A stretch of 64,000 nucleotides of DNA, from NCBI GenBank assembly GCA_951799425.1, contig OX637406.1, forward strand, positions 29,072,390 to 29,136,389. The letters run 5' to 3'. Below, in pieces: positions 20,867-61,567 of this stretch. The DNA comes from Ilex aquifolium. Taxonomy: Eukaryota; Streptophyta; Magnoliopsida; Aquifoliales; Aquifoliaceae. A program made the translations under genes and the position numbers. Position 1 is the stretch's first letter. Each line of letters opens with the position of its first letter. The notes below the pieces were generated by a model, which ran no database searches, was not told the DNA's origin, and was given only the letters and a program-made list of their open reading frames with translations.

Positions 20867-22471
20867 TGATTAGCACTCAAAAGTAGCATATTGTTACACT
20901 CTTTTTGGACTAATTATACTTTGATGGAGTTTAAATGATGATATTTTAGGTTCTAAAGTGAAGGAAAGTCCAAAGGCATCAAAGAAGTACATCTGAGGGA
21001 CAAATGCCGAATTAACGCAAGACCAAGGGAGCAATGTCAGGAGAATGCAAAGAATGAAGGACAAAGTGTAATAAAAGCAGGACAAAGTGTAATAAAAGCA
21101 TTTGAAAAATCAGCATTCAGCAACACCACCGTTCATTCTCCACTTGCCCACTTGCCCACTTGCCCAGCCTTCCTACGCCTATAAATAGGCTGCTCCTTCT
21201 GCATTTCAAGGAGAGACCTGAGGGTGGAATTGGTGGAAAAACCAAGAGAGGAACTAAGAGTTAGGAGAGATTTTAGAAGAGTTTTTAGAGAGCAAATTTT
21301 CTTTCATCTTTTGTAGCTTCCATTTCAATTCATGTATTGAAGATTTTATGCTTATGTTCTTATGGTAAGAGTTCTTTCTTCTAATTGTCATTTCTTTATA
21401 GCTTTTATATTTACTTGCTTGTATAAATATAATGGAAGGCTGAGCCTCCTCTTCTAATTGTCATTTCTTTATAGCTTTTATTAATTTCTTTTTATTATAT
21501 CTTGGTTGTGAATTAAACACCAAGTAGTTATTGTTTTCTTTTATGTATTTTTATCTCTTGGTTGTGAATTAAACACCAAGTATTTATTGCTTTCTTTTAA
21601 TTTAAGTATTGTTTTCTTTTACTTCCATTGTTGGAGCTTCCTTCTTCCCCTTAGAGGAGTGAAACTCTTCCACTTTTCTAGAGCTTTACCAAAGCCGTGA
21701 AGGGTGGAACGTGATTCACTTGTTCTTTGTCGAAGAACGACTCCTTGTTTAGATATTTTACTTTAGAGTATTTTACTTTGTAACACCTTTTGGGGATGAG
21801 TACTATTCATCATTCTAGCTTTACCATAGCTATGAAGGGTGAGTAGTCCTCATTCACTCTTTGGGAAGGGATGATAGATATGTAAAAGATTAATCCGGAC
21901 ATTATGTTTGTGTATCACCTTTATGCTTAAATGTTCTATACTCCACTTGATTTTTGGGTGATTGAATGCACCTAGCAAAGTAAATGTACTTTGTATAATC
22001 AACGGATCTTTCTATGATAAATGGATGACTCCTACATGGAAAGATCCATTGATTCAAGGCAAGTACCCTAACTAACTCTTCATGACAAAATTTCAATGTC
22101 CACCATTATTGCACTTCATTCCTATCTTCCGATTAATTTGCCGTTGACACGGGAGTTAATTGAGTTATAAAGCATAAACATAATGCACCGGATAATCAAC
22201 TACATATTCTGATTCCCGAACCAAAGAGTGTTTGTTACATTTAATCATCTTATATTTTGTCTAGAAAAATACCCATTGGAAAGAATTTTACATTCTATCC
22301 AAAACTTCCCACAACTTCAAAATCATAATATTTCCAGTTACAAGTCTTTCTCACTATTTACTTCAAAGAACACCAACCATAGTTCCCTGAGGATTCGACT
22401 CTGGACTCAAACCAGATTATTACTACAACTTGACCGCCTGCACTTGGGTGTACACATTTCGGATCAAGTCA
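20867..22471 (+). repeat. Element A 5' LTR
   Basis: TGATTAGCACTC...GGATCAAGTCA, 1605 bp, same length as the 3' copy and without visible difference. A probable TATA box CCTATAAATAGG (21178-21189) is followed by a purine-rich leader. A pair of direct repeats (TCTTGGTTGTGAATTAAAC, about 21501 and 21556) lies in the later part. Confidence 0.93.
21178..21189 (+). promoter_or_regulatory. Element A LTR TATA box
   Basis: CCTATAAATAGG lies about 310 bases into the LTR, followed 25-35 bases later by CTGCATTTCAAGG, a plausible start of the genomic RNA. It is duplicated in the 3' LTR at 33652-33663. Confidence 0.6.
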
Positions 22472-22477: not shown

Positions 22478-22495
22478 TGGCGCCGTTGCCGGGGA
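22478..22495 (+). other. Primer binding site, tRNA-Asp
   Basis: TGGCGCCGTTGCCGGGGA, six bases after the LTR end, is the complement of the 3' end of plant tRNA-Asp, the primer typical of Athila/Tat elements. Confidence 0.93.
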
Positions 22496-22596: not shown

Positions 22597-24717
22597 ATGA
22601 CTGACACCAATCGCCTCTTTCAAAATTTGCCTGCTGAATCTTCTGGGTCTGTAAATCAACTTGAACCACCTTCACCCAAATCAGAAGCCGATTCTTGTAA
22701 CTTCAATATGGCAAATATTGATAGGCAGGGTGAAGATCATGTGAGAGAGGGGGAAGTACCCAACATTCGAACATTGCGGGATTACTTACATCCCACAAGG
22801 AATAGTGTCCCCTCTTGTTTTGTTTTTCCGGAGAATGCACCCCACTTCACTGTGAAGCCGGGGACAGTGCATTTATTGCCCGTGTTTCAGGGATTGGATA
22901 CAGAAAATCCGTATCTGCATATCAAAGACTTCGAAGAAGTGTGTGGAACATTTCAAGACAATTCTGAATTGACAAAAATGAAATTGTTTTCTTTCTCTTT
23001 GAGGGATAAAGCCAAACAATGGTTACATTCTTTAAAATCTCTTTCAATCCCTAATTGGCAGGCTCTACAGAATGAATTTTTCAGAAAATTCTTTCCTCTG
23101 CACCGCACTAATGCACTCAAAAGACAAATCATGAATTTTTCGATCAAAGAAGGGGAAACTTTTTATCAAAGCTGGGAGAGATTCAAATATCTTCTCCAAT
23201 CTTGTCCACACCATGCTTTTGAAGATTGGACTTTGGTAGGATTTTTCTATGACTCCTTGCCCACTAGGTTACGACAGTTTGTCGAAATGATGGCTCAAGG
23301 AGAGTTCATGGGAAAAAGTCCGGAGGAGGCATTCAATTTTTTTGATACCATATCTGACAGTTCTCAAATGTGGGACTCAGCCTCTCCTACCACTGTAGAA
23401 GCCAAACCACCTACTTTCCAAGGGGGTAAGTATGTCTTGAGAGAAGATGATGATCTTAGAGCAAAAATGTCCACTTTGTCTCGAAAGCTTGAAGCTTTAG
23501 AGATGAAAAAGGTCCATCAAGTTGATGTTGTCCCTCCCACAGAACAAGTGTGTGGGATTTGTGCACTAACAGGGCATCCTACTGGGGAATGTCCGACCAT
23601 TCCGGCATTCAAAGAAGTTTTGTTGGAACAAACAAATGCCATTTCCAATTTCAACAAGCCTTACTCCAACCCATACTCTGAAACATACAATCCAGGGTGG
23701 CGGAACCACCCAAATTTCAGTTGGAGAAACACACAACCAACCCCCATGAATCAGCAACAAAGTCCACAACAACCACCTCAAGGACCTCCACAATATCCTC
23801 ATCAACAAGGGCCACCACAACCACCTCAAGGACCTCCACAATATCCTCCATATCAACCACCACACAAAAGGAACCTTGAAGATACATTGAATCAATTCAT
23901 GCAAACCCAAATGAGCTATAACAATAGTTCTACTCAGGCTTTTATTGATTTCAAGGCCCAGACCACACAATCTTTTGAGGATCTCAAAGGCCACATTCAA
24001 AAGCTGACCCAGTCCATGAGCACACATGAGAAGGGAAAATTTCCTGCCCAACCAAAGCCTCCACAAGGCCAATTTCAGGTGGGAAATCCATCAACTATGG
24101 AAACTCCACAAGACCAAGCCAAAACTGTCACCACATTGAGAAGTGGCAAAAAGATTGACAAGTCCATCAGAAACATGCTGATTCCAGACCCAAAACCAGT
24201 CTCAATTCCAGCCAACCCATTAAGTGAGCCAGAACTTGAAAAAAAAAAAAATGACTGTGATCCCATGATTGAACAAGAACCAGAGCCATCAAGGGAAGAA
24301 GAACCCTTGTGTTCTATTCCTGCTCCTTTCCCTCATAGACTCAAGAGCATACAGAAAGCAAACAATCAGTCTGAAATTTACGAGCTTTTCAAGCAAGTAA
24401 AAATCAACATCCCACTTCTGGATGCAATCCAACAGGTTCCAGCTTATGCCAAGTTTCTAAAAGACTTGTGCACAGTCAAAAGAAGCCAAAATGTTCAAAA
24501 AAGAGCCTTCCTCACAGAGCAAGCCAGTGCCCTAATTCAACACAAAATCCCTTCAAAGTGCGAAGATCCAGGGTGCCCCACTGTGTCATGTGTCATTGGA
24601 AATTTCAAAATTGAGCAAGCATTGTTAGACCTTGGAGCTAGTGTCAACTTGCTTCCTTTCTCTGTCTACCAGCAGTTGGGTTTAGGTGAACTAAAACCCA
24701 CTTGCACCACACTCTAA
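22597..24717 (+). CDS. gag: Element A gag and start of protease (ends at premature stop)
   Basis: 706 codons from the first ATG after the primer site. Residues about 95-240 form the retrotransposon capsid domain (e.g. LRDKAKQWLHSL, WQALQNEFFRKFF, YQSWERFKYLLQSCPHH). A CCHC zinc knuckle CGICALTGHPTGEC is at residues 319-332, and a Q/P-rich repeat stretch with PPQGPPQYP is at about 386-425. The protease starts near residue 665 with active-site DLGA (Asp678). The frame stops at TAA (24715-24717) inside protease. The homologous codon in element C is CAG (Gln), so this is most simply a recent CAA-to-TAA change; pol follows in the same frame. Gag packages element RNA into virus-like particles in the cytoplasm. 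Confidence 0.95.
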   Translation: MTDTNRLFQNLPAESSGSVNQLEPPSPKSEADSCNFNMANIDRQGEDHVREGEVPNIRTLRDYLHPTRNSVPSCFVFPENAPHFTVKPGTVHLLPVFQGLDTENPYLHIKDFEEVCGTFQDNSELTKMKLFSFSLRDKAKQWLHSLKSLSIPNWQALQNEFFRKFFPLHRTNALKRQIMNFSIKEGETFYQSWERFKYLLQSCPHHAFEDWTLVGFFYDSLPTRLRQFVEMMAQGEFMGKSPEEAFNFFDTISDSSQMWDSASPTTVEAKPPTFQGGKYVLREDDDLRAKMSTLSRKLEALEMKKVHQVDVVPPTEQVCGICALTGHPTGECPTIPAFKEVLLEQTNAISNFNKPYSNPYSETYNPGWRNHPNFSWRNTQPTPMNQQQSPQQPPQGPPQYPHQQGPPQPPQGPPQYPPYQPPHKRNLEDTLNQFMQTQMSYNNSSTQAFIDFKAQTTQSFEDLKGHIQKLTQSMSTHEKGKFPAQPKPPQGQFQVGNPSTMETPQDQAKTVTTLRSGKKIDKSIRNMLIPDPKPVSIPANPLSEPELEKKKNDCDPMIEQEPEPSREEEPLCSIPAPFPHRLKSIQKANNQSEIYELFKQVKINIPLLDAIQQVPAYAKFLKDLCTVKRSQNVQKRAFLTEQASALIQHKIPSKCEDPGCPTVSCVIGNFKIEQALLDLGASVNLLPFSVYQQLGLGELKPTCTTL

Positions 24718-27700
24718 TTGGCAGATAGATCTGTAAAAATTCCTAGGGGTATTGTTGAAGATGTACTTGTCCAAGTGGATAATTTTGTCTTCCCTGTAGA
24801 CTTCATTGTTCTAGATACTCATCCAGAAGTTCATTCAGAAACTCCAATTCCTGTCATTCTTGGTCGACCTTTTCTAGCAACCTCCAATGCACTAATCAAT
24901 TGCAGAAATGGTATTATGAAATTGACTTTTGGGAATATGACTCTTGAAATGAATGTCTTTGACATTGCAAAACACCCAAGAGAGTACGAAGAGGTAGAAG
25001 AAATAAATTCCATTGAGTCATTGATACAAGCACATCTGAATGACTCATTCTGTGAGGATCTTAGTGAATCGACTTTGTCAAAATCTGACTCATCTGACTC
25101 TCTGGAACAAAACTCCATTGAGTGTCCTACCTTCAATGTGGGGACATGGGCTCCTAAATTTGAAGAAATTTCATCAAGTGGTACAAAACCACTATCTTCA
25201 AGTGACAGGCCACCAAAGCCTGAACTGAAACCGCTCCCATCTGATCTCAAGTATGCATTTTTAGGTGAGGATAAATCTTACCCAGTGGTAATTTCTTCAA
25301 AAATCACAGACTTGCAAGAAGCTCAATTAATTGAAGTTCTTAAAAGTCATAAAAGCACCATTGGGTGGACCATCGCTGATTTGAAAGGTATAAGCCCGTT
25401 AATTTGTAATCATGCCATATACCTTGAAGAGGACTCAAAACCCTCTCGTCAAATGCAGCGACGATTGAATCCTCACATGAAAGAGGTTGTGAGACTAGAA
25501 GTGCTCAAACTCCTGGATGCAGGGATAATTTTTCCTATCTCCGATAGCAAATGGGTTAGTCCAACCCAAGTTGTACCAAAGAAATCTGGAGTCACAGTAG
25601 TCAAAAATGATGCAAATGAACTTGTGCCAACACGAGTCGTCACAGGATGGCGAATGTGCATTGACTATCGAAAACTCAATCTGGTGACTAGAAAAGACCA
25701 TTTTCCTCTTCCCTTCCTTGACCAAGTCCTCGAGAGAATAGCAGGTCATGAATTTTACTGTTTCCTGGATGGGTATTCCGGATACAATCAAATTGAGATA
25801 GCTCTGAATGACCAAGAAAAGACCACATTCACATGTCCATTTGGCACCTTTGCATTCAAAAGGATGCCATTCGGACTTTGTAACGCTCCTGCAACATTTC
25901 AAAGATGTATGCTAAGCTTGTTCAGTGACATGGTCGAAAAATTTTTGGAAATCTTCATGGATGATTTCTCGGTATATGGTGACTCATTTGATTTGTGTCT
26001 AGCTAACCTAGAAAAAGTTTTGATGAGATGCAAAGAGGCAAATCTGGTGCTTAACTGGGAGAAATGTCATTTCATGGTGAATCAAGGCATTGTCTTGGGT
26101 CACATTGTGTCGTCTGAAAGCATGAAAGTTGATAAAGCAAAAATTGATTTGATAAGGAATCTTCCTGCTCCTAGGGTTGTGAAGGATGTTCGATCATTCT
26201 TAGGTCATGCAGGATTCTACAGAAGGTTCATAAAAGACTTCAGCACCATAGCAAAACCTATGTGTCATCTTTTGTGTCAGGATGTCATTTTCGACTGGAA
26301 TGAAGCGTGCCAAAAATCCTTTGACAAACTCAAAGGCATGTTAATTTCTGCCCCAATAATGCAACCTCCTGACTGGACTCTACCCTTTGAATTGATGTGT
26401 GATGCTAGTGACTATGCTGTAGGTGCTGTTTTGGGACAAAGAAAAGATAAGAAGCCACATGTGATTTACTATGCAAGTAAAACTTTAAATGATGCCCAAA
26501 TGAATTACTCAACAACTGAAAAGGAATTACTTGCTGTAGTATTTGCATTGGAAAAATTTCGATCTTATCTTGTTGGTTCTTCTGTTACTGTATTTACTGA
26601 CCATGCAGCACTGAAATTTTTGCTTACAAAAAAAGATGCCAAACCAAGGCTCTTGAGATGGATCCTCTTGCTCCAAGAATTTGACTTAGTCATTAAGGAC
26701 AAAAAGGGTGTGGAAAATGTGGTGGCAGATCATCTGTCAAGATTAACTTATGAATTTCATGAGGATGGACTGCCAATCAATGAAAAATTCCCCGATGAAC
26801 AACTATTCAGGATTGATGAAACCCCATGGTACGCTGATATTGCTAATTTCCTTGCTACCGGAACACTTCCTCCATTTTTCACTCCCATGGACAAAAAGAA
26901 GTTTCTGAGGGAGGTCCGCAATTTCTTTTGGGAAGATCCCTACGTATTCAAGTACTATAAGGATCAGATCATAAGACGTTGCATCCCCGCTCAGGAAAGT
27001 AGACAGGTAATAACATTTTGTCATTCAGAAGCATGCGGTGGTCATTTTTCATCTCGAAAAACCGCTGCAAAAATCTTGCAGTGTGGATTTTACTGGCCCA
27101 CACTTTTCAAAGATGTCCATGCTTTTTGCGTAACTTGCGATAGATGTCAAAGGTTGGGAAACATTTCAAAAAGAAACATGATGCCCTTAAACCCAATTTT
27201 GGTGATCGAAATTTTTGACTGTTGGGGTATCGATTTTATGGGACCATTTCCCCCCTCCTTTGGCTATCTATACATTTTAGTAGCCGTAGACTATGTATCC
27301 AAATGGGTTGAAGCAATTCCATGCCGAAATAATGATCATCAAACGGTGATCAAGTTTTTAAAAGAAAATATTTTATCTCGGTTTGGAATTCCAAAATCCA
27401 TTATAAGTGATGGGGGTTCTCATTTTTGCAATCGTCCCTTCTGGAATTTAATGAAAAAATACTTGATTTTTCACAAAATTGCAACCCCTTATCATCCACA
27501 GACCAGTGGACAAGCTGAGTTAGCTAATCGGGAGATCAAATTAATTTTGGAAAAAACGGTGAACCCAGATCGCAAAGATTGGTCATTAAGACTAACTGAT
27601 GCGCTCTGGGCATACCGAACTGCTTTTAAAACAATTTTGGGCATGTCTCCCTATCGATTAGTCTATGGAAAGCCATGTCACTTGCCTGTGGAATTGGAAC

Positions 27701-28200
27701 ATAGGGCATACTGGGCTATTAAAGCAATGAATTTTGACTTAGACAAGGCTGGACTGTCACGGAAGCTTCAGATTAATGAATTGGAGGAATTGAGAAATGA
27801 AGCATATGAAAATGCTAAGATTGCAAAAACCAGGATGAAAATTTTTCATGACAAGAACATAGTGCGAAAATCTTTTGAACCTGATCAAAAGGTTCTACTT
27901 TTCAATTCGAGACTTCGCCTATTTCCTGGTAAGTTGAAATCAAGATGGACTGGACCATACATTGTTAAAAAGGTATTTGAACATGGGGCAGTGGAAGTGG
28001 AGAACCCATCAAACGGTAACATTTTTACCGTAAATGGTCAGAGATTAAAACCCTTTGTGGAGAATTTTGTCCAAAATGTGGAGACCATTTTTTTAATGGA
28101 TCCAGAAAGTATCTCCGGATATCACTCCGGAGATTACGCTTGCCGACACAAAAAAGGGTCGGGTCAGTCAGACACCCGACACGATGGACTGCCTTTATAA
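24718..28200 (+). CDS. pol: Element A pol: protease end, RT, RNase H, integrase
   Basis: 1160 codons in frame with gag after the stop, so it has no natural start of its own. It contains the protease C-terminus ([15 protein letters not shown]), RT with [10 protein letters not shown] and catalytic FMDD (residues 413-416 of this segment), RNase H ([25 protein letters not shown]), and the integrase zinc finger (H...H, CVTCDRC). The integrase triad is D839, D898 and E934, with DX35E spacing exactly as expected. The C-terminal part ([12 protein letters not shown]) is complete and no chromodomain follows, as usual for Athila. All catalytic residues are present. Without readthrough or reversion the stop at 24715 would block pol, although copies could still move using enzymes from intact relatives. 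Confidence 0.95.
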
Positions 28201-28351: not shown

Positions 28352-28498
28352 ATGTCTGCATTTTTCGACGACCCTATTCTCCTTCTCATGATCTACATTT
28401 GTTTGTATTATTTACTTATGGCTGTTCTTCTTCGGGCCGCACTGATGATCAAGGGTTTTTGTCCCAACGAAAACCCAGACCACCCCAAAGATGCTTAA
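28352..28498 (+). CDS. Small single-membrane-segment protein, accessory cassette 1
   Basis: 48 codons: a short acidic N-terminus (FFDDP), one hydrophobic segment of about 22 residues (ILLLMIYICLYYLLMAVLL), then a basic/polar tail ending NENPDHPKDA. No family is recognised. Two further versions exist: 30390-30521 and minus-strand 55859-56005. Their sequences are well diverged, but all keep the single membrane segment, similar length (43-48) and an NPD near the C-terminus. That pattern points to a real protein rather than a chance frame. Start chosen as the ATG at the conserved position; a longer upstream frame (28184) is pyrimidine-tract translation. Likely a membrane-anchored accessory or env-substitute; role unknown. 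Confidence 0.6.
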   Translation: MSAFFDDPILLLMIYICLYYLLMAVLLRAALMIKGFCPNENPDHPKDA

Positions 28499-28589
28499 TC
28501 TCTGTTTTCTTTTGGTATAGGTCATCGGCGATTGAACAGATCTCCACGGTTAACTGCGTATTCAAGCTCTACAAACCGAAAAACTCGAA

Positions 28590-28626
28590 ACATTGGGGAC
28601 AATGTTCAGTCTAGGTTGGGGGGTGA
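28590..28626 (+). other. Internal polypurine-tract-like site with short stem
   Basis: CATTGGGGACAATG forms a 5-bp stem around GGGG, followed by TCTAGGTTGGGGGGTGAG. The end closely matches the polypurine tract beside the 3' LTR (TTAGGTTGGGGGGTG, 33326-33340). Element C has the same block at about 55733-55772 (minus). It could be a second plus-strand priming site. Confidence 0.5.
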
Positions 28627-28820
28627 GATCTACAGTTTACAGTAGTTGATCTGCGCAGGTTGAACCCGTAAAAGTTTCTGTAATTTTACTTTTGTTTTTA
28701 TTGTTGTATCTATTCAGATTATGTACCTTGTATTAATGATAATATCTGTGGGTCAGTTTTGATCGTCTTTGTGACTGGAAGACGTAAAAGAACCAGATAA
28801 TGGGTCATAGAGTAGCAATC

Positions 28821-29231
28821 ATGGATGTAAATCTTTTTTGGTTTAGTCTAGGAGTCCTACGTACTTTTCCATCTGATGTACATACCATGATCATGAGAAA
28901 AGCAAGATTAGTAAGGAAGGCTGAAATCAAAGAAAAACAAGCGAAACCCCTCTGTGGCCGAAGCAGTTATTCTAAACGTCGTCGTGCTACACGACTTGGT
29001 GCCTGTAAACAGTGTGGCAGATACTTTCATGAGAAAAGATACAACAAATGTTCTGAACCAATTTCCGGTCGCGCAACCGATCGATTAAACTGGATAAAAC
29101 ATGGGCTGAGTAAGGATTACCCTGATACGCCATGCTATTCCGGTACTGTGCTTAACCGATTTGTGAGAGAGGAAGTTGGGAGAGTTACTAGTTGTCCATT
29201 TTACACAGATACGGAGGGGGAATCGGATTGA
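28821..29231 (+). CDS. Basic cysteine-rich protein, accessory cassette 1 (carlavirus CRP-like)
   Basis: 136 codons from the ATG shared by all three copies (an extra in-frame ATG lies at 28800). An N-terminal hydrophobic-aromatic part (LFWFSLGVLR) is followed by a basic helix-like region. Next come LCGRSSYSKRRRATRLG (residues 44-60), a zinc-type motif C62-X2-C65-X4-H70-X6-C77, PISG, a conserved stretch GLSKDYPDTP, and an acidic end. By memory of the family pattern, the GRS...RRRA...CXXC arrangement and the following P-I-S and G...P spacing resemble the small cysteine-rich nucleic-acid-binding protein of carlaviruses. Those proteins bind nucleic acid and can suppress RNA silencing. Homology is inferred, not computed. 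Probably nuclear or nucleic-acid binding. Confidence 0.75.
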   Translation: MDVNLFWFSLGVLRTFPSDVHTMIMRKARLVRKAEIKEKQAKPLCGRSSYSKRRRATRLGACKQCGRYFHEKRYNKCSEPISGRATDRLNWIKHGLSKDYPDTPCYSGTVLNRFVREEVGRVTSCPFYTDTEGESD

Positions 29232-29600
29232 CCTCTGTGGAAAAGTGTACTGAGGTTGGGAATGAAAGCTGAAGGTCCGAGTCTGTAAATTTTATTTTAT
29301 TTTATTTTTTTTTTATGTTCTGTACAAACTCTTTTGGCTTAAGAATGTTTATTTTGATTCCTTTTAGTATGCATAAAAAAAAAAAAAAAAAAAGGGGTTG
29401 GAATATATAATAAGTAAAATAGAGATGTTGAAATATATAATAAGTAAAATAAAGGGGTTAGTAGTGTAAAATCTGAAATTTTATATTCATTCGGTTTAGT
29501 GAATTGAGAATAATTACAACTTTATTGAAAAAAATTTAATAACACCCCTTTCTTTTGAATAATAAACACTTTATATTTTTTTTCTTTCTTGTGTTACACT
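29232..29600 (+). other. Cassette 1 trailer, A/T-rich
   Basis: Non-coding. It contains the TGTACAAACTCTTTTGG block shared with cassette 2 and element C, long T-runs, an A19-type run (29377-29395), and a directly repeated ATATATAATAAGTAAAATA (29403 and 29433). No gene seen. Confidence 0.5.
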
Positions 29601-30164
29601 TTGTACCCCTACAAATTTTGGGATTCTTGGTGAATTAAGGAATTTCAGGGACGAAATTCTTTTGAGGAGGGTAGATTGTGAGATCCCAAATTTTTGAAAT
29701 TTTTGAAAATGGTTTAAGTATATATATTATGAGTTTTGATGGGAAAGTATAAGGAATAATTAAGTTTTGTGGTTGATATATATAATAAGTGAAATATAGG
29801 GGAGCAAAGTATAACTATTTTAACTTTTATGATAATTGAGTCTTCAGCCACGTGAAGACTGGCAAAAAAAAAAAAAAAAAGTCAAAAGTAGGCAGCCGTT
29901 CATTCATTACATTTTAGAAAATGTGGGTGTGTGCAATTAATGGTATAAAATTTAGTGTGTGTCTGGTTCTTTGTTGGAACCGTGAGTGAAGTACAGTTGC
30001 TTTTATTTATTAAATGTTATTTTTAATGCATGTCACTTTATTTTGTTGTATAATTTTGTTGTTCCTAGTTTCAGATATCGGTGCATGGGTCAAAGCTCAA
30101 GTGCGAGGTGTTCTCTTACCCTACTCATTTTTATTACTATGCACCATTATTGCGTCTGCTGCCA
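29601..30164 (+). mobile_element. Foreign chromovirus fragment: internal 3' end plus LTR start
   Basis: ATTTCAGGGACGAAATTCTT and a purine tract GAGGAGGGTAGAT lie directly before TGTGAGATCCCAAATTTTT (LTR start 29677). This is the standard junction of a chromovirus internal region with its 3' LTR, and the family differs from B, D and E. The LTR part continues for roughly 490 bases and then gives way to cassette 2 near GCCTGCCGACAC. No target duplication is visible, so it may have been acquired by template switching rather than insertion. Confidence 0.55.
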
Positions 30165-30229
30165 TTATTGCGCCTGCCGACACTGCCGAAAGTAAAGTTA
30201 AAAAAAAAAAAAAAAAATCTGAGGAATGC

Positions 30230-30243
30230 CTTTATTAGGCCTT
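30230..30243 (+). promoter_or_regulatory. TATA-like site of accessory cassette 2
   Basis: CCTTTATTAGGCCT corresponds to the CCTTTATAAGGCTC of cassette 1, with one change in the TATA core, and likewise precedes a pyrimidine-rich leader. Confidence 0.35.
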
Positions 30244-30389
30244 CCACCTTTTTCTTTTTCTTCCACCATCACCGGTGTTGGTTCCCCCCTTTTCTCTTTC
30301 CCTTATCTTCTTCTCTTTCTTTTTCTTCTCTTCTTCTTCGTCGTCGTTCTTTCTGTTCTCTGTAAAAACAACTCACCCCCTGTAAATCC

Positions 30390-30521
30390 ATGACCATATA
30401 CGCCGACGATCCAGTCTTTTGTTTAATAATTTGTCTTATATGTTTGTATGTGTACCTGGGTGCTCTTTGTGTTCTCACACTTAGGATGAGGAGTTTCCAG
30501 AGAAACCCAGATATTCCTTGA
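30390..30521 (+). CDS. Small single-membrane-segment protein, accessory cassette 2
   Basis: 43 codons. The N-terminus has ADDP, as in cassette 1 (DDP); one hydrophobic segment (VFCLIICLICLYVYLGALCV) follows, then RMRSFQRNPDIP. The NPD tail matches the other two copies. A conserved untranslated block (GATGAACAGATCT) follows about 35 bases later, as in cassette 1 and element C. Confidence 0.6.
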   Translation: MTIYADDPVFCLIICLICLYVYLGALCVLTLRMRSFQRNPDIP

Positions 30522-31067
30522 GTTGAGTAATTGTTGTATTTTGTTTGTAGGTTTCGGCAGATGAACAGATCTGTACCTTACAACCTTATCTCCACTAGCC
30601 CACTAGTGCTAGTGTTGTAAGTATTGCTTGTTTGTAATTTCATTTATATATATATTTGAAATTTGATATCTACAGCTTGTGATTCTCATGGCTATTTGTC
30701 TTTATAAGATTCCTTGTGAATTTGCTATGCCCTCCAATGACTATGTTGTAATTGCTGTTACAGTAAGATCTGATAATTTGCCAAATAATCCTCCTCAATC
30801 CTATGTATTCTGGGTTTATTCCTTCTTCGTTAATTTGTTTGTTTCATCCTAAATCTTCTTCCTTCCGCTTGTATTTTGGTATACTTTCTCTAGTTTCGTA
30901 GTTTTAGATCTGAAAAAAAAAAAAAAAAAAAAAATTTATTTTTTTTGGATCGCGTTTTTTTTAGTATTTGTACCTGTATTTCATGATCACATCGGATGCA
31001 GCTTCAACTGTCTTTGTGATTGGCAGACGTTAAAGAACCAGATAGAATGTCTTTAGTCTTAGCAAGC
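30522..31067 (+). other. Spacer between the two genes of cassette 2
   Basis: AT-rich and non-coding, with an A22 run (about 30913-30934). The last 60 bases (TCTTTGTGATTGGCAGACG, AAAGAACCAGATA) are conserved upstream of the cysteine-rich gene in all three copies, so they probably belong to its leader. The equivalent cassette 1 spacer is shorter. Confidence 0.4.
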
Positions 31068-31472
31068 ATGGATCCTAAACTTTTTTGGTTTAGTCTAGGA
31101 GTTCTACGCATTTTCCCATCTGATGTGCATGCTGTGATAATGAGAAAAGCAAGGGATGTGAGAAAAATTGAGATCCGAGAGAAACAACAACAACCATTGT
31201 GTGGCAGAAGCAATTTTGCTAAACATCGTCGTTCCAAACGACTGGGTGCTTGTTACCATTGTGGCAGGATATTTCATATGAAAAAACATAATCAGTGTTC
31301 TGAACCAATTTCGGGTCGTGCAACCGATCGATTAAACTGGATAGTGTATGGGCTGAGTAAGGATTATCCTGACACACCATCTTATGCCAGTCCAGGACTT
31401 ACAAGTTATGTGCGACAAGAAGTTGGAAGGGTCACTGATAATGACATAGATCCAAGCGATGACTCGGATTAG
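31068..31472 (+). CDS. Basic cysteine-rich protein, accessory cassette 2 (carlavirus CRP-like)
   Basis: 134 codons from the conserved MD start; the open frame extends upstream without an ATG to 31020. It keeps LFWFSLGVLR, the LCGRSNFAKHRRSKRLG basic region, C62-X2-C65-X4-H70-X6-C77, PISGRATDRLNW, GLSKDYPDTP and the acidic DDSD end. It differs from cassette 1 mostly in the last 35 residues and at many scattered positions, roughly two-thirds identical by eye. The open frame and motif conservation despite this divergence suggest both copies were functional until recently. Confidence 0.75.
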   Translation: MDPKLFWFSLGVLRIFPSDVHAVIMRKARDVRKIEIREKQQQPLCGRSNFAKHRRSKRLGACYHCGRIFHMKKHNQCSEPISGRATDRLNWIVYGLSKDYPDTPSYASPGLTSYVRQEVGRVTDNDIDPSDDSD

Positions 31473-31850: not shown

Positions 31851-33325
31851 TATAATTTTGAATTTTATTTTTCTTGTTTTCTAAAAAAAAAAAAAAAAAA
31901 AAAACCACTTCCTTGAAAAATGGTATTTTCTCTATGCTTAAATGTCAAATGTATATTGCTATTTGTTATTCTTAAGGTAAAGAATGACCAGACTCAAAAA
32001 TAGAATCGGTATATAACCGACATTCCATGAAAAACCTGACATTACCAGTGGAGATGATAAAGAATACCATGGTAAGTTTTGAGCCTTATCATACTTTTGA
32101 GAGATAATTAACATTTATTCAAGTAAGGTCTTTCACTCTCTATTTTTGAATAATCTCATTAAATTTGCTTTGATTGACGCAACTAAGGTAATCTGTTGAC
32201 ATATCCCCAAGAAATCTGTTCATACGACACATACATGTTCACATACTTGAGAAAGGATTTTAGGCCATCTTTGATTTGATATTGAGTCTTAGCCATTTTT
32301 TCTGCAAAATTATTTCCCTAGTCAGCCATGTTTGAGCCCTCAATGTATGATTTCTTCTTTGATAAACCCAAATATTTACCAAGCCACAAGAAAACATACT
32401 GGACACACCATTGCTATCAAATTTTCTTGCACACTCTTATTAATCAATATGACACAGAAATGCAAAGAAATGGGAAAACTGTGGAGATTACTTTTCGATG
32501 ATAAGGAGAATCAATGAAAAAAAAAAAAAAAAGAAATCATTTCTGGGCAAAATGTCGAAAAGCTAGAAAGAAGTGTGCTACATTACAGAATGAAAAGATA
32601 GCTTTTGAAAACCTCTGACGTCATTTCATTAGCCACTGACCTCTGGCCACGCTACAACCTATGAAAAGCCCTAATTGATCTCAAGTCTGTTACATGTGTG
32701 TGTTGTTAATCAAAATTGGGGTATGGTAAATAGTATTTCTTTAAATTGCATCAATATTCTTTCATGAGATTATGCCAAACATGATTAGTTTGTTTCCGTA
32801 AACTTCACTTCCTTCCTAATTGTGCATGTGATTTTTCGATTGGCCACCTTCTGATCACATGCCCCGTGAGAGACAAGTCACTATAATCGGAGTGAATTTT
32901 TGCTGAGAGCATTCTACGAGAGGTTTGTGAAATCGAAGCTATCCATGGAAGGTAGTAAAGTGGAGTGTTTGTTATATAACAATTCTTGTTGCTAGAATGA
33001 TCATTCTTACTACATAGGGAATTTCAAATACCAATATAACAAGTGTTTATTTTTCCGTATATTACGTACCAATGACAGAGAAGTGTTCTATGTTCTAAAA
33101 AAAAAAAAAAAAAAAAGTTTCAACTATCATGGTGCTAATGCATATACACATTTTTTTTCACAATGGAGTTTGTAGGTAGCTTCACTGAAAACCTTCACGA
33201 GACAAAACTCGTCCACTAGGAATCACCTAGGGGTTTAACGGCTTATTGCATATGCTAAATGCAACCGTGTTATCTACGAAAGTGATTTTGTTATGCTGTT
33301 ATTTATTGCTAGAGACCAGCAATGT
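31851..33325 (+). other. Element A 3' non-coding region
   Basis: No supported gene. Blocks of it match the 3' region of element C in the same relative order (e.g. 32330-32480 with about 52390-52500; 32870-33010 with about 51770-51920). The long transposon-protein gene of C (53392-54344) has no counterpart here. Poly-A runs occur at 31884, 32517 and 33098. Confidence 0.5.
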
Positions 33326-33340
33326 TTAGGTTGGGGGGTG
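33326..33340 (+). other. Element A polypurine tract
   Basis: TTAGGTTGGGGGGTG directly precedes the 3' LTR start TGATTAGC. Confidence 0.85.
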
Positions 33341-34945
33341 TGATTAGCACTCAAAAGTAGCATATTGTTACACTCTTTTTGGACTAATTATACTTTGATG
33401 GAGTTTAAATGATGATATTTTAGGTTCTAAAGTGAAGGAAAGTCCAAAGGCATCAAAGAAGTACATCTGAGGGACAAATGCCGAATTAACGCAAGACCAA
33501 GGGAGCAATGTCAGGAGAATGCAAAGAATGAAGGACAAAGTGTAATAAAAGCAGGACAAAGTGTAATAAAAGCATTTGAAAAATCAGCATTCAGCAACAC
33601 CACCGTTCATTCTCCACTTGCCCACTTGCCCACTTGCCCAGCCTTCCTACGCCTATAAATAGGCTGCTCCTTCTGCATTTCAAGGAGAGACCTGAGGGTG
33701 GAATTGGTGGAAAAACCAAGAGAGGAACTAAGAGTTAGGAGAGATTTTAGAAGAGTTTTTAGAGAGCAAATTTTCTTTCATCTTTTGTAGCTTCCATTTC
33801 AATTCATGTATTGAAGATTTTATGCTTATGTTCTTATGGTAAGAGTTCTTTCTTCTAATTGTCATTTCTTTATAGCTTTTATATTTACTTGCTTGTATAA
33901 ATATAATGGAAGGCTGAGCCTCCTCTTCTAATTGTCATTTCTTTATAGCTTTTATTAATTTCTTTTTATTATATCTTGGTTGTGAATTAAACACCAAGTA
34001 GTTATTGTTTTCTTTTATGTATTTTTATCTCTTGGTTGTGAATTAAACACCAAGTATTTATTGCTTTCTTTTAATTTAAGTATTGTTTTCTTTTACTTCC
34101 ATTGTTGGAGCTTCCTTCTTCCCCTTAGAGGAGTGAAACTCTTCCACTTTTCTAGAGCTTTACCAAAGCCGTGAAGGGTGGAACGTGATTCACTTGTTCT
34201 TTGTCGAAGAACGACTCCTTGTTTAGATATTTTACTTTAGAGTATTTTACTTTGTAACACCTTTTGGGGATGAGTACTATTCATCATTCTAGCTTTACCA
34301 TAGCTATGAAGGGTGAGTAGTCCTCATTCACTCTTTGGGAAGGGATGATAGATATGTAAAAGATTAATCCGGACATTATGTTTGTGTATCACCTTTATGC
34401 TTAAATGTTCTATACTCCACTTGATTTTTGGGTGATTGAATGCACCTAGCAAAGTAAATGTACTTTGTATAATCAACGGATCTTTCTATGATAAATGGAT
34501 GACTCCTACATGGAAAGATCCATTGATTCAAGGCAAGTACCCTAACTAACTCTTCATGACAAAATTTCAATGTCCACCATTATTGCACTTCATTCCTATC
34601 TTCCGATTAATTTGCCGTTGACACGGGAGTTAATTGAGTTATAAAGCATAAACATAATGCACCGGATAATCAACTACATATTCTGATTCCCGAACCAAAG
34701 AGTGTTTGTTACATTTAATCATCTTATATTTTGTCTAGAAAAATACCCATTGGAAAGAATTTTACATTCTATCCAAAACTTCCCACAACTTCAAAATCAT
34801 AATATTTCCAGTTACAAGTCTTTCTCACTATTTACTTCAAAGAACACCAACCATAGTTCCCTGAGGATTCGACTCTGGACTCAAACCAGATTATTACTAC
34901 AACTTGACCGCCTGCACTTGGGTGTACACATTTCGGATCAAGTCA
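33341..34945 (+). repeat. Element A 3' LTR
   Basis: 1605 bp; no difference from 20867-22471 found by eye. It is followed directly by the second GCACC duplication (34946-34950). Confidence 0.93.
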
Positions 34946-36071: not shown

Positions 36072-36074
36072 AGC

Positions 36075-49500: not shown

Positions 49501-51405
49501 TGGTTTGATCCGAAATGTGTACACCCAAGTGCAGGCGGTCAAGCTGTAGTAATAATCCGGTTTGAGTCCGGAGTCGAATCCACAAGGAACTTTTGCTGGT
49601 ATTTTTGAGATAAGCAGTGATGGAGACCTATTGATTGTAACCTTTGAGATTTGTTGTGAGTTGTGAGATTTCCTGGACAGAATATAAGATTCTTTCAAAG
49701 AGAATTGTCTTAACAAAATATGAGATAAACTCTAATAAAAAAAAGTCACTCTTTAGTTCAAGGATCTGGACATGTAGTTAATTATCCGGTTTATTATACT
49801 TGTGCTTGATAACTCAATTAACTCCCGTGTCAACAGCAAGTTAATCGGAAGATAAAGATGGACTGTGAGAATTAAGAACATGATTCCGATGTCTTTCTAG
49901 AAGTTTACAAGAATTGTCTATGCCGAGACTTAACCCGTCTACAAACAAGCAAGTGTTTCTATAAGACATCCAATCATGACATTAATATTCCATTCTTTAA
50001 ATGAAGCACAATAAGGGGGAGGATTGAAGGGTAGTCCTAAAGATCTAGCCGGGGTACTTGCCTTGAACCGATGAGTCTTTCTATGCAAGAGTCATCCGTG
50101 TCATAGAAAGAGCCAATGATTATACAAAGTACCTTAACTTTGCTAGATGTAATCAATCATCCAATAAGCAAGAAGAAATAAACGTTAAGCATAAGAATAG
50201 TGCACAAGTATAATTCCCGGATAACTTATACATGTCCTTCTCCTCTTACTAAAGAGTGAATGAGAAACTACTCACTCTTCATGGCTTTGGTAAAGCTAGA
50301 AAAGTGAGTGATGCTCATCCCTCCAAGTAGAGGACTTAAAAGATGAAATAACAATGAACAAGGAGCCAATCTTTAACAAAGATTGAGTGAATCACGTTCC
50401 ACCCTTCACGGCTTTGGTAAAGCTCTAGAAAAGTGGAAGAGTTTCACTCCTCTAAGAAAAAAAGAAGCTCAAGCAATGGAAGTGAAGTACATAAACAATA
50501 AAAGTAGAAGAAAGCTAGTTACATTTGGAGGGTGGCTTCCTCAACCAAGGAATGAAGGGTTGCTTCCTCAACCAAAAGATGAACTAACTCCCTTCTATGC
50601 ATGTAAATGAAAGCATAAGCATAAAACTACTTTTATAACAAGCAAGGAGATGTTGGACTAAAGCCAAACTAATCTCTAAAATAAAGACTTCATACAAGGA
50701 AAATGTAAGCTTAAATCTACAATGTGAGTGGGAGTCTAAGCCTCCATCAACCTCTCTACATGGCTCCCTAAGCTCTCCAACAATGGGAGTATTTATAGGC
50801 AAGAGGAGGAGACAAGAGAGGGTGAAGGAATAGTGTATGCCGCCCAAGTCCAAGTGAAAAACCAACTACTCTGCTGCCAATCTGTGGAGAATGTTCGAAC
50901 GTGATTTGGCGTTCGAACATTGTCTGCCGTTCGAACGTTTCTTCTGTCTTTGCACTATGGGCGTTCAAACGCCAAATGTGCTCTGATCCTCTCACTCGAG
51001 TGATCTGTTGGTCTTCTGTGAAGTTCAGTTTCACACTCTATGCAGTAGTCTCATCTTCAATCAACTCAAGTGCACGTTCGAACGTGAGTTGGCGTTCGAA
51101 CGTGATACTCAAGTGCCTCAGAGCTTCAGTCTTCTTTCCTGACTGCAACACGTCTTCTCTTAGCAGTTGGGTCTGCTACAGTTCAATGTGGCCGTTCGAA
51201 CGTGAGTTGGCGTTCGAACGTTCTGGCTGTGCTTCAAGCTTCTCCAATTTTGTGCTCTAATGTGCTGGTGTTGCATTCAAGTGTGGTACTTGTTGTTCTT
51301 GAGTCTTTGTTCAGTTTAGGGCCTGAAATGACATCACTTAAACTACATCAAAGTACAATTAGTCTTAAAATGACATAGTAATATGCTAATTTTAAATGCT
51401 AATCA
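49501..51405 (-). repeat. Element C 3' LTR
   Basis: 1905 bp; plus reading TGGTTTGATCC...AATGCTAATCA. TATA box on the minus strand CTATAAATAC (50789-50798), just downstream of the palindrome array 50890-51223. Confidence 0.92.
50890..51223. promoter_or_regulatory. TTCGAACG palindrome array in element C U3 (left LTR)
   Basis: Seven or more CGTTCGAACG words, often in pairs spaced by TGAGTTGG or TGATTTGG. They lie upstream (minus sense) of the TATA box at 50789-50798. The same array is in the other LTR at 62945-63278. Confidence 0.55.
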
Positions 51406-51420
51406 CACTCCCCAACCTAA
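51406..51420 (-). other. Element C polypurine tract
   Basis: Minus reading TTAGGTTGGGGAGTG directly abuts the 3' LTR, the same motif as in element A. Confidence 0.8.
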
Positions 51421-53391
51421 ATATTACTAGTCTCTAGTAATACAAAAAAAATCTATTCCTAATGCCATTTTCGTAGGTCATCTGGTTGCATTTAGCTTAT
51501 GCAACACGTCGTTGAACCGCTAGGTTTACCCTAGTGGACGAGTGTTGTCTCGGGAGGGTTTCTAGTGAAGCTACCCAAAAACTTCAGTCGAACAGATGTG
51601 TATGTGAGACTACTGATTAAAGTAAGTTAGCATCATGGTCGTTGAGACACCCAACTCTCAATTTCGACTTATATCCTGCATGTCCCTCTTTCATAGGTAT
51701 CTATTCTATGCAAAAATTAGCATATGTTACATTGGTATTTGGAATTCCCTGTGTAGTAGGAATGATCATTCAAGCAACAGGAATTGTTATATAACAAACA
51801 CTCCCTTTTACCACATTCCATGGATAGCTTCGATTTTACAAACCTCTCGTAGAATGCTCTCAGCAAAAGTTCGCTCCAATTATAGTGACTTGTTTCTCAT
51901 AGATCATGTGATCAGAAGGTGGTCAATCGAAAAATCACATGCACAATTAGGAAGAGAGTGAAATTTTAAGGAAGTAACTACTAATGTTTGGCATAATCTC
52001 ATGAAAGAATATTGATGCAATTTAAAGAAATACTATTTACCATATCCCAATTTTGATTGACAACACATGTATGTAACAGACTTGAGATCAATTAGGGATT
52101 TTCATAGGTTGTAACGTGGCCAGAGGTCAATGGCTAACAAAATGACGTCAATAGAATTCAAAAGCTATCCTCTGTTTATGTAGTGTAGCACACTTCTTTC
52201 TAGCTTTTTGATATTTTGCCCAGAAATGGTATTTCTTTCTTTCATTTTGCTCATTTTTCACTTTCTTGGCAATTTCTTGCCCTTTTTTTTTTTTTTGCTT
52301 CTTTTCTGTTTCAATTGTTCCCATCGATTCCTCTTGTCGTTGAATGGTAGCCTTCATAGCTCTTTCCTTTTTCCTTGCATTTCTATGTCATATTGATTTA
52401 TAAGAGGGTGCAAGAAAATTAGATAGCAATGGTGTGTCAAGTATGTTTTCTTGTGGCTTGGTAATCATACGGGTTTATCGAAGAAGAAATCATACATTGA
52501 TGGCTCAAGCATGGCTGACTAGGGAAAAAATTTTGTAAAAGAAATGGCTAAGGCTCAATATCAAATCAAAGATGGCCTAAAATCATTTCTCAAGTATGTG
52601 CACATGTATGTGTTGTATGTGAAGGTTTCCTGTGGGATATGTCAACAGATCACTTTTAATTGCGTCAATCAAAGCAAGATTAATGAGATTATTCAAAAAT
52701 TGAGAGTGAAAGACTTTACTTGAGTAAACATCGATTGTCTCTCGAAAGCATCGTAAGGCTCGAAACTCACCATGGTATTCTTTGTTATCTCCACTAGTTA
52801 TGTCGGGTTTTCCAGGGGATGTCGGTTATATACCGATTCCATTTTCGAGTCAAATCATCCTGTACCTTGAAAATAAAAAATATCGATGCATATTTGACAA
52901 TTTAAGCATAGAAATAATACCAATTTTCCAAGAGATGTGGTTTTAAGTCTCGGTTGATAAGTTGAGGTGTCAAACCGGTCATGTGCGTAGTTACTCTAAC
53001 AAGCATTCTTAACATCCACATTCGTTCCATCATATATTAATATTAAGCTAAATCTACATATGCATTAAAACAAATAAAAGTGATAAATTGAATCATTCAT
53101 TTCTCAAAATATCGTCGTTTAACATCAACATCAATGATTCAATTCATCCACAATCACACACAAAAACTTACAACATCTTTAACACTACCAAAGAAGAAAC
53201 TCATAAAACTAAGCAATAAACACACAAAAACCATAAACAAGAACAGGGAACCCTCTCTCTCACTCTCCTCCATGTTCACCATCTCCACCAGGTCCACCCC
53301 TCAGAAGTCTAAGAATCTCATCCTGCTTAGCTTCAATGCTAAACATGATATCTCGTAAAGAGCATCGGGTGCTGGTGCTAGGTCCTACCTC
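51421..53391 (-). other. Element C 3' non-coding region
   Basis: No supported gene. Parts match element A's 3' region (31851-33325). Short frames here are not conserved in A. Confidence 0.5.
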
Positions 53392-54344
53392 CTATAGCTG
53401 ATCTCTCTCTTCCTCCATCTCTCTCTCCTCCATCTCATCAAGCTCCTCTTGCACCTCGTCCACTCCATGGGTAGGGGGTATCTCCTGTCTGGTCGCTGGG
53501 CCGCCACTATGACCTTGGCTTCTCTGGAAGGAAGCCTTGTTCAGTGGCCCCATCGGCTTTTGAATCTCCATCTCTGGTCTCACCCTTACCCCGTGATCTT
53601 TGCACATTTCAGTCGCTAGGATGCCGAAGGGAAGTGAATTCCGCTTCACGTCACACCCTTTCTTCATCTCAGTCAACACTAGAGAGGGTAGGTCAATGCT
53701 TTGCCCTTATACAACAATTGGGTCATGTCGGGGAGGATTTCATTCTTTCTTCCTAGCGGAGCAAAGTTGGCAACCGCAATCAAGTTCAATATTTTGTATT
53801 TGTCGGTGAGTTCCCCTTGTCTAAAAAATCTTTTTCCCGTCGAAGAAAAATTAGGCATTCCCGTTAGCTCCCTCCCCACGACATTCATTGCAACGTTCTT
53901 TCTCGGGGGATAAGCGGGACTTGGGACCCGAGGCACTTCTTGCCTAATTTCTCTTATGTAATCCTCGTCCACATCGATGTGGATCCCCCTCACATAACTC
54001 CTTAATGATCCATTGACTATTTCGGCGTTGGAGTAAAACTCCCTCACCAAGTCAACTACGGCCTCTCCGTCGTTTCACAAATACAAGACCCAACCCCTCC
54101 TTTCCATCTCCGCCATTATCCCCAATTCAACAAAATCAGATAAAATGACATCCCTATCACAAACCACAGCATGTTTTTGGTAAAAATGGATGTACCTGTT
54201 AGCTTTTAGAGCTGTGGGGAACCGGGTTTTGTTGTATCTTCGCGTAAGTGGTGGCATTCCTTCTCTCACTTCCACCACTTCCTCGACGAAATTGGGCTCT
54301 TGGGTGTTTGGGTTGCGCCTAGCAGGAAGCTTGACTCTTGGCAT
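53392..54344 (-). pseudogene. 'Putative plant transposon protein' gene in env position, broken
   Basis: Minus-strand translation from ATG at 54344 gives a basic start, then FPTALKANRYIHFYQKH, VILSDFVELGIMAEMERRGW, a stop (54075), VDLVREFYSNAEIVNGSLRS and VRGIHIDVDEDYI. There is a frame break near 53680, then KRNSLPFGILATEMCKDHGV and a glutamate-rich end. The order matches a family of about 300-residue proteins found in many plant retrotransposon-derived loci and labelled putative plant transposon protein; the biochemical role is unknown. With one stop and one frameshift it is dead. It has its own upstream TATA and palindrome array (54554-54875) and is absent from element A. Confidence 0.65.
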
Positions 54345-54553
54345 TTTCGGTTTTTGAGTTTGAGGGCTTTGAAATCTTGGATTTCTTTGTGAAAATGGAA
54401 ATTTTTGATATGGGAATAGTTTTGGGAGGATTGATTTTTAGTCAAAATGGAGAATGGTTGGTGTTTTGGGGTCTGGGTAGTGAAGAGTCACCAAGGGTTT
54501 TTTCGATTTTTCGAGGGTTTTGGATGGTTTTGAAATGAAGAAGACGAACCAGG

Positions 54554-54875
54554 CTTTTATAGCCTGAGTCGTGACGTTCGAACGTTGGTAACATTCGAAC
54601 GTGTCTAGAAGGATTTTAAACAGATTGTTCGAACGTGGTTGTCGTTCGAATGTGGTGAGCTCTCAGTATTTTTGAGTTCTGTCAGAGGTCAAAGTACTGT
54701 AAGTTCTCTTCGTTCGAACGTTCTATTGGCGTTCGAACGTTAATCTCGTTCGAATGGTCTATTGGCATTCAAACGGACTGAGGTCCCAGTACTTTTAAGT
54801 ATCATCAGAAGCTTCATCAGGGGTTAAGTACTGCAAGCAGCTAACGTTCGAACGTCACCTGGCGTTCGAACGTTG
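54554..54875 (-). promoter_or_regulatory. Internal promoter: palindrome array plus TATA box
   Basis: On the minus strand at least six CGTTCGAACG-type words (54875 down to 54573) are followed within 15 bases by GGCTATAAAAGCC (54553-54563). The transposon-protein ATG lies about 210 bases further on. The layout copies that of the element's own LTR promoter. Confidence 0.55.
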
Positions 54876-55137
54876 AATCAAAAATCAAAAATTTCTGCAC
54901 TACATTATACAGAATTAGAAAGGGCTAAACACACAATTTTAAATCAAAAATCTATGGCGTCTCAGGATAAGCCCCTACCCACACTTCAGGTTGGTATTCT
55001 GGGACATTCCTTACTCGGCCCATATTTTCATTTCATTCAAAAGAGTTTATACAAAAAGATTTTTACACTTTTTACAAAAAATTTGTACATTTGGCTTTCA
55101 TCCCCAACAAAAGTACACATTTCCTACAGAAAATTAT

Positions 55138-55548: not shown

Positions 55549-55732
55549 GATTTCTAAGCTTTAAGACTCACTATCTGGTTCTTTAACGTCTGGCAGTCAC
55601 AAAGACGATTGAAGCTGACTCACAAACATAATCATCAATTTATACAAGACAAGGTACATAAAATGATCAGAACAACAACAACAACAGCAAAAATGTTAAA
55701 AATTTACGGGCAAATATGAACTGTATTCTCAC

Positions 55733-55772
55733 ATCACCCCAACCTAAACTGAACATTGTCCCCAATGTTTCG
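55733..55772 (-). other. Internal polypurine-like site with stem, element C
   Basis: Minus reading ACATTGGGGACAATGTTC followed by TTTAGGTTGGGG; counterpart of 28590-28626. Confidence 0.5.
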
Positions 55773-55858
55773 AATTTACCAGTTCACGGATCTTGGAGAT
55801 GAGGTTGAATGGTAGAGATCTGTTCATCTGCTAAAACCTACAAATAAAAATACACAAA

Positions 55859-61561: not shown

Positions 61562-61567
61562 AAAACT

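Follow-up and report, generated by a model that had tools for sequence, protein, structure and literature searches.

Two described systems come closest to the locus considered here. One is the nucleic-acid-binding or cysteine-rich proteins (NABPs or CRPs; Pfam PF05515, Viral_NABP, and PF01623, Carla_C4) of trichoviruses, pruneviruses, vitiviruses, and carlaviruses, all flexiviruses; the other is the Athila-type Ty3/gypsy retrotransposons that carry env-like open reading frames (ORFs; PF03078 or PF20167). The locus combines them. It lies in a 64,000-nucleotide stretch of Ilex aquifolium DNA (assembly GCA_951799425.1, contig OX637406.1, positions 29,072,390 to 29,136,389 of the forward strand; hereafter the window), in which a young Athila-type element, bounded by long terminal repeats (LTRs), carries two open genes whose products are, by sequence comparison, homologues of the viral NABPs.

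The CRP of CVB is reported to bind nucleic acid in vitro, to suppress silencing (weakly, according to one paper), and to be a transcription factor (PMC9650830, PMC12172455). Carlavirus CRPs are commonly silencing suppressors (PMC9650830), and so is their homologue in grapevine virus A (PMC4472227). For the elements, PF03078 is reported in 16% of those of the Athila lineage (PMC6317226), and PF20167 is linked to Athila ORF1 (PMC11728184).

Homology to Flexivirus NABPs

The window contains three NABP genes (Table 1). Two of these, copy 1 and copy 2, are open from start to stop, and the third, on the minus strand of an older related element (element C), is interrupted by one in-frame stop; apart from the strand of the third, all had been described in this form in an initial annotation made from the DNA letters. 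A six-frame hidden Markov model scan of the 64 kb gave no others, all remaining matches having E > 3. Copies 1 and 2 are 72% identical over 123 aligned residues. The motifs CX2CX4HX6C (C62, C65, H70, and C77 in copy 1), PISG, and GLSKDYPDTP are common to all three copies, but the GRS...RR patch, which had likewise been ascribed to all of them, is limited to the two open copies; in the element C copy, SRS stands at that place and the arginine run is kept.

A separate observation concerns the DNA 3' of copy 2, where two head-to-tail repeats of ~130-140 bases, 82% alike, occupy positions 31575-31849. They hold stretches resembling the DNA that codes for GLSKDYPDTP and may be remnants of another NABP copy that has decayed.

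Both open copies score above the Pfam curated cut-offs of two viral families: 42.7 and 46.6 bits for copies 1 and 2, respectively, against Viral_NABP (cut-off 23), and 26.4 and 24.4 bits against Carla_C4 (cut-off 20.9). The profile comparison proposed in the initial annotation thus came out in its favor. Its label "carlavirus-CRP-like" is nevertheless too narrow because Viral_NABP is the stronger family for both copies and the top fold matches, described below, are to proteins of cherry mottle leaf virus and pruneviruses. An alignment of 12 window-type proteins, A1, was used for further searches. Every one of its members matches both Pfam families at E ≤ 1 (best E = 7.7e-13), and all 12 retain the basic patch together with the four residues of the zinc site. 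A search with the A1 profile, which gave 19 proteins at E ≤ 1 from 387 candidates, reached, in a database of 5.8 billion sequences, a protein of apricot vein clearing associated virus with E = 3.7e-11 and one of grapevine virus H with E = 6.7e-7. When A1 was compared by hhalign with three virus proteins, the result of this single comparison was 99.3% (E = 1.2e-20, 98 columns); the arginine-rich GxS..RR..RLG patch beside the zinc-type cysteine motif aligns with all three virus proteins, two of which read GVS and one GRS.

A profile made from three flexivirus NABPs gave 65.8 bits for copy 1 and 64.3 bits for copy 2, against 11.5 bits for the top scorer among 4,002 decoys made by shuffling or reversal (3,709 of them among the matches listed). 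Masking residues 43-61, the basic patch, left 19.6 and 14.2 bits; masking residues 43-78, which removes the zinc site as well, left 17.8 and 10.8 bits, the latter a weak score for copy 2. Since the best masked decoy reached 6.1 bits (4,000 decoys, 3,307 among the matches listed), the similarity exceeds the short motif.

Copy 1 was also modeled from a 35-row alignment, 3 rows of which are named viral (pLDDT 68.6, pTM 0.48). In a fold search against viral models, the top match (E = 8.5e-6, 33% identity) was to a protein of cherry mottle leaf virus, and two prunevirus proteins came next; all eight matches at E ≤ 0.001 were flexivirus proteins, with RMSD of 5-12 and TM of 0.35-0.55 and with the three named virus rows included in the alignment behind the model. 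Some of the matched viruses are ones that we take to belong to flexivirus families. The fold matches would support NABP homology but do not prove it. A model from the 12-row alignment had a pLDDT of 46 and was discarded as poor.

No solved structure matched the copy 1 model at E ≤ 0.001. In PHROGs, protein P0001 had a single match (E = 0.38) and P0002 had none; phage records gave no match, and no relative was confirmed among IMG/VR contigs (five queries) or GTDB contigs (P0001 as query). Overall, the sequence comparisons indicate that the window proteins are true homologues of flexivirus NABPs. They are homologues rather than viral genes because they lie between an integrase gene and a 3' LTR and not 3' of the coat protein gene of a positive-strand RNA virus.

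Purifying Selection on the NABP Genes

The ratio of nonsynonymous to synonymous substitution rates (dN/dS, by Nei-Gojobori) between copies 1 and 2 is a rough 0.22 over 123 codons, or 0.27 over 134 codons. It is 0.27 between copy 1 and the element C copy (135 codons, the stop skipped) and 0.26 between the element C copy and copy 2 (122 codons). The range of 0.22-0.27 is well below 1, the outcome that the initial annotation had named as support for its claim. In a neutral simulation, the 86 observed substitutions were randomly redistributed within bases 1-369 of copy 1; none of 5,000 replicates reached the observed ratio, which excludes chance, and only 104 of them kept an open frame. The NABP gene is also the most conserved piece of its module, with identities of 75.0, 87.3, and 76.2% in the three comparisons (gaps omitted); the corresponding values are 52-60% for the upstream small ORF, 56-74% for the leader, 53-59% for the sequence before the leader, and 54-68% for the sequence 3' of the NABP gene. 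The NABP ORFs are under purifying selection.

The upstream small ORFs encode 42-48 residues with a hydrophobic stretch and lie 5' of each NABP gene: two in the young element (Table 1), one in element C (55859-56005, minus strand), and one, of 42 residues, at 1572-1700 of contig L001, which is described below. All three of the window copies are open. Their dN/dS of 0.54-0.70 indicates weaker constraint than on the NABP genes, and since conservation is no better than that of the flanks, a two-gene module of hydrophobic ORF and NABP gene was kept as a lead only.

Pyrimidine-rich stretches at ~28505-28525 and ~30540-30555, 5' of the NABP genes and next to the small hydrophobic ORFs, end in TATAG|GT and TGTAG|GT, and are followed in all three copies by a conserved TGAACAGATCT stretch. 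From their sequence, they look like 3' splice sites.

The Carrier Element and Its Surroundings

Copies 1 and 2 are in sense orientation between the integrase region and the 3' LTR of the young element, which places them, as the initial annotation had proposed, at the env position. The element is a complete Athila-type insertion. The two LTRs show no difference in 1,605 bp, and the insertion is therefore very recent. It shows the features expected of an Athila element in its complete LTR structure, 5-bp target duplication (GCACC on both flanks), gag, and order of reverse transcriptase, RNase H, and integrase. Neither a chromodomain nor an additional RNase H (aRH) family was found in the young element by a Pfam scan at E ≤ 0.01. 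An aRH is the mark of the Tat lineage (PMC6317226), and by this criterion the element fits Athila and not Tat. Among the ORFs of at least 100 residues in the young element, none of the Athila env type was seen by eye. In other respects, the probable assignment to Athila draws on a PF20167-like fragment in element C that scores below the cut-off. The protease region at the end of the gag ORF was recognized by eye, without a Pfam match; the same ORF has its own CX2CX4HX4C knuckle.

Table 1. Features of the NABP-bearing elements in the window and of contig L001.
Feature	Position	Strand	Evidence or comment
NABP copy 1, type 1, 136 residues	28821..29231	+	Open from ATG to stop; PF05515 E=8.1e-11, PF01623 E=6.7e-6
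NABP copy 2, type 2, 134 residues	31068..31472	+	Open from ATG to stop; PF05515 E=5.5e-12, PF01623 E=2.9e-5
Single NABP copy of element C, type 1	55138..55548	-	One in-frame stop
5' LTR, 1,605 bp	20867..22471	+	Identical to 33341-34945; left flank GCACC
Primer binding site TGGCGCCGTTGCCGGGGA, close 3' of LTR	22478..22495	+	Same stretch after the LTR of element C; presumed tRNA match
gag ORF, 706 residues, into protease region	22597..24717	+	PF03732 Retrotrans_gag E=1.9e-17
Remainder of pol, 1,160 residues, with reverse transcriptase, RNase H, and integrase	24718..28200	+	PF00078, PF17917, PF17919, PF17921, PF00665
48-residue ORF with hydrophobic stretch, 5' of copy 1	28352..28498	+	Weak candidate; dN/dS 0.54-0.70 (three comparisons)
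Internal polypurine-tract-like motif between integrase and copy 1	28589..28627	+	Matches L001 2574-2612; resembles tract before 3' LTR
43-residue ORF with hydrophobic stretch, 5' of copy 2	30390..30521	+	Weak candidate; open frame
Polypurine tract TTTAGGTTGGGGGGTG, then LTR start TGATTAG	33325..33340	+	Read from sequence
3' LTR	33341..34945	+	Identical to 5' LTR; right flank GCACC
Element C, older related element	49501..63460	-	LTRs 49501-51405 and 61568-63460, 95.96%; ATTAC on both sides
Env-like ORF fragment of element C (Transposase_32-like)	53679..54050	-	PF20167 E=9.8e-9, 35.8 bits; below curated cut-off of 45
L001 (DAIEQH010000041.1), plant-like retrotransposon contig, 3,330 bases			Filed under Candidatus Nomurabacteria isolate clean1184

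The internal polypurine-like motif recurs at 55744 on the minus strand in element C; in the form CATTG.GGACAATG...GGTTGGGG or similar, it is present in both window elements and in L001. The young element is enclosed by 2.3-kb direct repeats (15314-17642 and 36074-38398) that are 98.8% identical. Minus-strand ORFs that resemble pol lie between 17696 and 20455, and an ORF with a zinc knuckle occupies 34897-35721, both recognized by eye. The young element accordingly appears to have been inserted into another LTR element.

Relatives of the Window Proteins

A first protein search yielded 10 proteins at E ≤ 0.01 from 28 candidates, with 65-82% identity to copy 1. They fall into two types by alignment residues: copy 1 and P0003-P0007 have FHEK and YSGT (type 1), and copy 2 and P0008-P0012 have FHMK with YASP, YTSP, or YSSL (type 2). 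Two trees were built, both unrooted, with three named virus proteins and a long-branch warning. The larger has 41 rows out of 127 proteins; P0012, P0013, P0015, and P0017 were dropped as fragments or degraded, and the other omissions, all of the 182-residue type introduced below, were thinned by hand. The second holds 26 of the 127 proteins. In the 41-row tree, type 1 forms a clade (starred; support 98/95). Copy 2 is joined to P0009 and P0011 (92/95), and its nearest relative is P0009, at 89% over 131 columns. As the two types also occur apart in other sources, the window copies are not a fresh duplication. Judged from these sequences, the split between copies 1 and 2 is older than that between the window element and the sources of P0003 and P0009, and both copies are still open in the young element. 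For P0007, of type 1, and for P0015, which has an internal deletion and ends like type 2, the only contig on record is 2,941 bases long; this is probably the same contig and would then be a tandem pair in another source. Both P0013 and P0015 look degraded.

The family is considerably wider. A profile that included the virus proteins gave 739 proteins at E ≤ 0.1 from 2,067 candidates; among the best 120 of these, 107 scored highest with the profile of a 182-residue type, 11 with the window type, and 2 with the virus profile. Members of the 182-residue type come from Populus x canadensis, Populus alba, the asterid Orobanche hederae, and the rosid Xanthoceras sorbifolium, and its clusters reach 566 members, a size that repeated sampling, repeated copies, or both may explain. 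In profile comparisons, this type is linked with the window type at 97.5% (E = 8e-12), and the virus proteins are linked with it at 98.1% (E = 1.1e-13). Each of the 12 A1 proteins scores 64-72 bits with the virus profile, above the 34-48 bits reached with the 182-residue profile.

One member of the 182-residue type, a diverged relative, is found in contig L001, evidently contamination in the bacterial genome under which it is filed. Positions 1-1542 of this contig are an Athila-like integrase region with 72% DNA identity to that of the window, and an NABP of 186 residues follows at 1787-2347 (PF05515 34.1 bits; PF01623 20.4 bits, just below the cut-off). Open homologues exist elsewhere, one of them behind an Athila-like integrase; their lack from other Athila elements, together with a dN/dS near 1, had been put forward in the initial annotation as grounds against its claim. 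The L001 gene lies before the internal polypurine-like motif, whereas the window copies lie after it, and the opposite order reflects either a rearrangement or a second acquisition. A tree of viral and plant proteins, as suggested in the initial annotation, was obtained, but its deciding forks are poorly supported. The virus proteins attach, in both unrooted trees and with weak support, between the 136- and 182-residue types.

Discussion

The reading that we prefer, with a probability of roughly 0.6, is that an Athila-type lineage gained a flexivirus-type NABP and keeps it as a likely nucleic-acid-binding factor for counter-defense or regulation. A Ty3/gypsy element of this lineage would have acquired the gene, from a presumed viral source, at the env position; the gene would then have been duplicated into two types, both retained under purifying selection during transposition. 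The protein likely works as its viral relatives do, combining a helical part at its N-terminus with an arginine-rich patch and a zinc site of the form CX2CX4HX6C. The patch would bind RNA or DNA and could direct nuclear entry; the protein may then sequester or shield element RNA, or target silencing by small RNAs or at the transcriptional level inside the nucleus, and the element would be able to express and copy itself in the face of host silencing. On the most economical reading, a suppressor or RNA-shielding factor is encoded by the element itself, and we infer silencing suppression from the viral relatives. According to a section heading, LTR elements of N. benthamiana form circular DNA upon a viral suppressor and heat stress (PMC12786186).

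Several observations weigh against this reading. Most of the viral similarity lies in the patch and zinc region, masking of which takes the scores from 64-66 to 11-18 bits, and, with a dS of 0.81 separating copies 1 and 2, their dN/dS ratio is a rough one. The stop at 24715-24717 breaks the gag-pol frame, and this young copy may therefore be non-autonomous; the element C gene has its own in-frame stop. Type 2 was not recovered as a clade, with P0008 and P0010 in an open fork and P0012 outside the tree. The element setting of the 182-residue type is known from L001 alone, a contig on which no LTR was identified. Lastly, the trees leave the origin unsettled, as the AU test does not reject one common ancestry for the two plant families (p = 0.079).

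The same homology might serve another job, such as RNA packaging, RNA export, or transcription from the LTR, instead of anti-silencing. We regard a role in LTR transcription or in packaging as the main rival, though clearly less probable than the counter-defense or regulatory role preferred above. The conservation of the basic patch and all four zinc-site residues throughout A1 would suit such a role, and the CVB relative is reported as a transcription factor (PMC9650830, PMC12172455). However, the gag ORF has its own knuckle, which makes a second packaging protein less needed, and silencing suppression is the activity named most for the viral relatives in the papers cited here.

The direction of transfer can also be reversed, with the NABP born in plant elements or in a plant gene and later taken up by flexiviruses. 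The large plant side, with its 739 matches and the 182-residue type accounting for 107 of the best 120, favors this, as does the patchy occurrence of the gene among betaflexiviruses, being found in Vitivirus, Carlavirus, and some trichoviruses only (PMC4472227). The three named viruses, in addition, do not form one group in the unrooted trees. These trees, however, hold only those three virus proteins, on long branches, with bootstrap values of 52-93 at the deciding forks, and, judging by its occurrence in several genera that we take to represent two flexivirus families, the gene may be long established in viruses. On balance, donation by plants is unlikely.

An inert passenger, that is, a captured fragment hitchhiking without function, is very improbable: the stop in the element C copy and the degraded look of P0013 and P0015 are what it would predict, but the dN/dS values, which no neutral simulation matched, the conservation of two types across sources, and the diverged relative behind a similar integrase all speak against it. 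Convergence, in which an unrelated basic zinc protein such as ribosomal eL43 merely looks viral, is hardly credible, since the weak PDB sequence matches that favor it (P0001 to eL43, best E = 0.0046), like the name "ribosomal protein L37AE/L43A" that one source gives P0007, stand against virus proteins reaching 3.7e-11 in a far larger database and similarity that remains outside the patch and zinc site. An eL43 origin was rejected, as the ribosomal PDB matches weaken with the family profile, to E = 0.16 or worse for eL43 and 0.11 for the best overall, eL37.

A more far-reaching version of acquisition from flexiviruses, which we advance tentatively and hold to be rather doubtful, is that Athila-type elements hold an ancient standing class of virus-type silencing suppressors, obtained in more than one acquisition from flexiviruses or by two-way exchange. 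More than one acquisition would be consistent with the attachment of the virus proteins between the plant types, the higher scores of the A1 proteins with the virus profile, and the opposite order of gene and motif in L001. If it is true, plants face one suppressor family from both RNA viruses and their own transposons.

A paper on active sunflower elements describes where the extra ORFs of plant LTR elements come from, and what they do, as unknown (PMC11728184). Here, the extra ORF has a clear relative with known viral activities, and its function is thus directly testable. If the protein is a suppressor, and if the relatives in Populus, Orobanche, and Xanthoceras are also in elements, a widespread retrotransposon lineage would carry a counter-defense gene of virus type, and transposon control would be linked to virus evolution. 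For plant virology, some environmental proteins labeled "viral nucleic acid binding" (such as P0008 and P0009) are of the element type.

Comparison with Known Systems

Both the element type and the protein family are known; it is their combination for which no earlier report was seen. Among the titles and abstract beginnings surveyed, none gave an account of an NABP in an LTR element, though subscription journals were mostly outside this survey and priority is not established. In a screen of 121 genomes, 15 extra domains passed the filter, and neither Carla nor NABP is among the nine named in the section concerned; the main text of that paper mentions none of Carla, NABP, or PF01623 (PMC9289625).

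The window proteins are like the flexivirus NABPs and CRPs in their scores above cut-off, the GxSxxAxxRRAKRLG-type patch, the zinc-type cysteine pattern, a similar length, and the order of parts. They differ in belonging to a chromosomal LTR retrotransposon, in being present as two tandem copies, and in having their own C-terminal part and zinc spacing. With Athila-type elements that have env-like ORFs, the young element shares the arrangement LTR-gag-pol-extra ORF-LTR and the sense env position, and element C retains a PF20167-like fragment; unlike the usual Athila ORF, the extra ORFs of the window are relatives of viral NABPs. The nearest precedent is the ORF for an AlkB-type RNA demethylase in Phalaenopsis Gypsy elements, where a Ty3/gypsy lineage likewise kept an acquired RNA-directed domain; that ORF, however, encodes a different protein in a different lineage and is reported as closest to human and Arabidopsis RNA demethylases (PMC9289625). 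AlkB domains also occur in flexiviruses.

VANC of the VANDAL DNA transposons and the dsRNA-binding-like extra ORF of Tekay are further element-encoded proteins with a proposed or shown anti-silencing role (PMC12844716, PMC11728184). The window protein, unlike these, has viral relatives with known biochemistry. We know of no sequence relation between it and either of them. Lastly, cucumber CsFRLS1 is, like the window genes, a flexivirus-related sequence in a plant nuclear genome, but it is replicase-like and, with retrotransposon-like sequence nearby, lies outside the gene set of an element (PMC3136472), whereas the NABP gene of the window is an open and replicated part of one.

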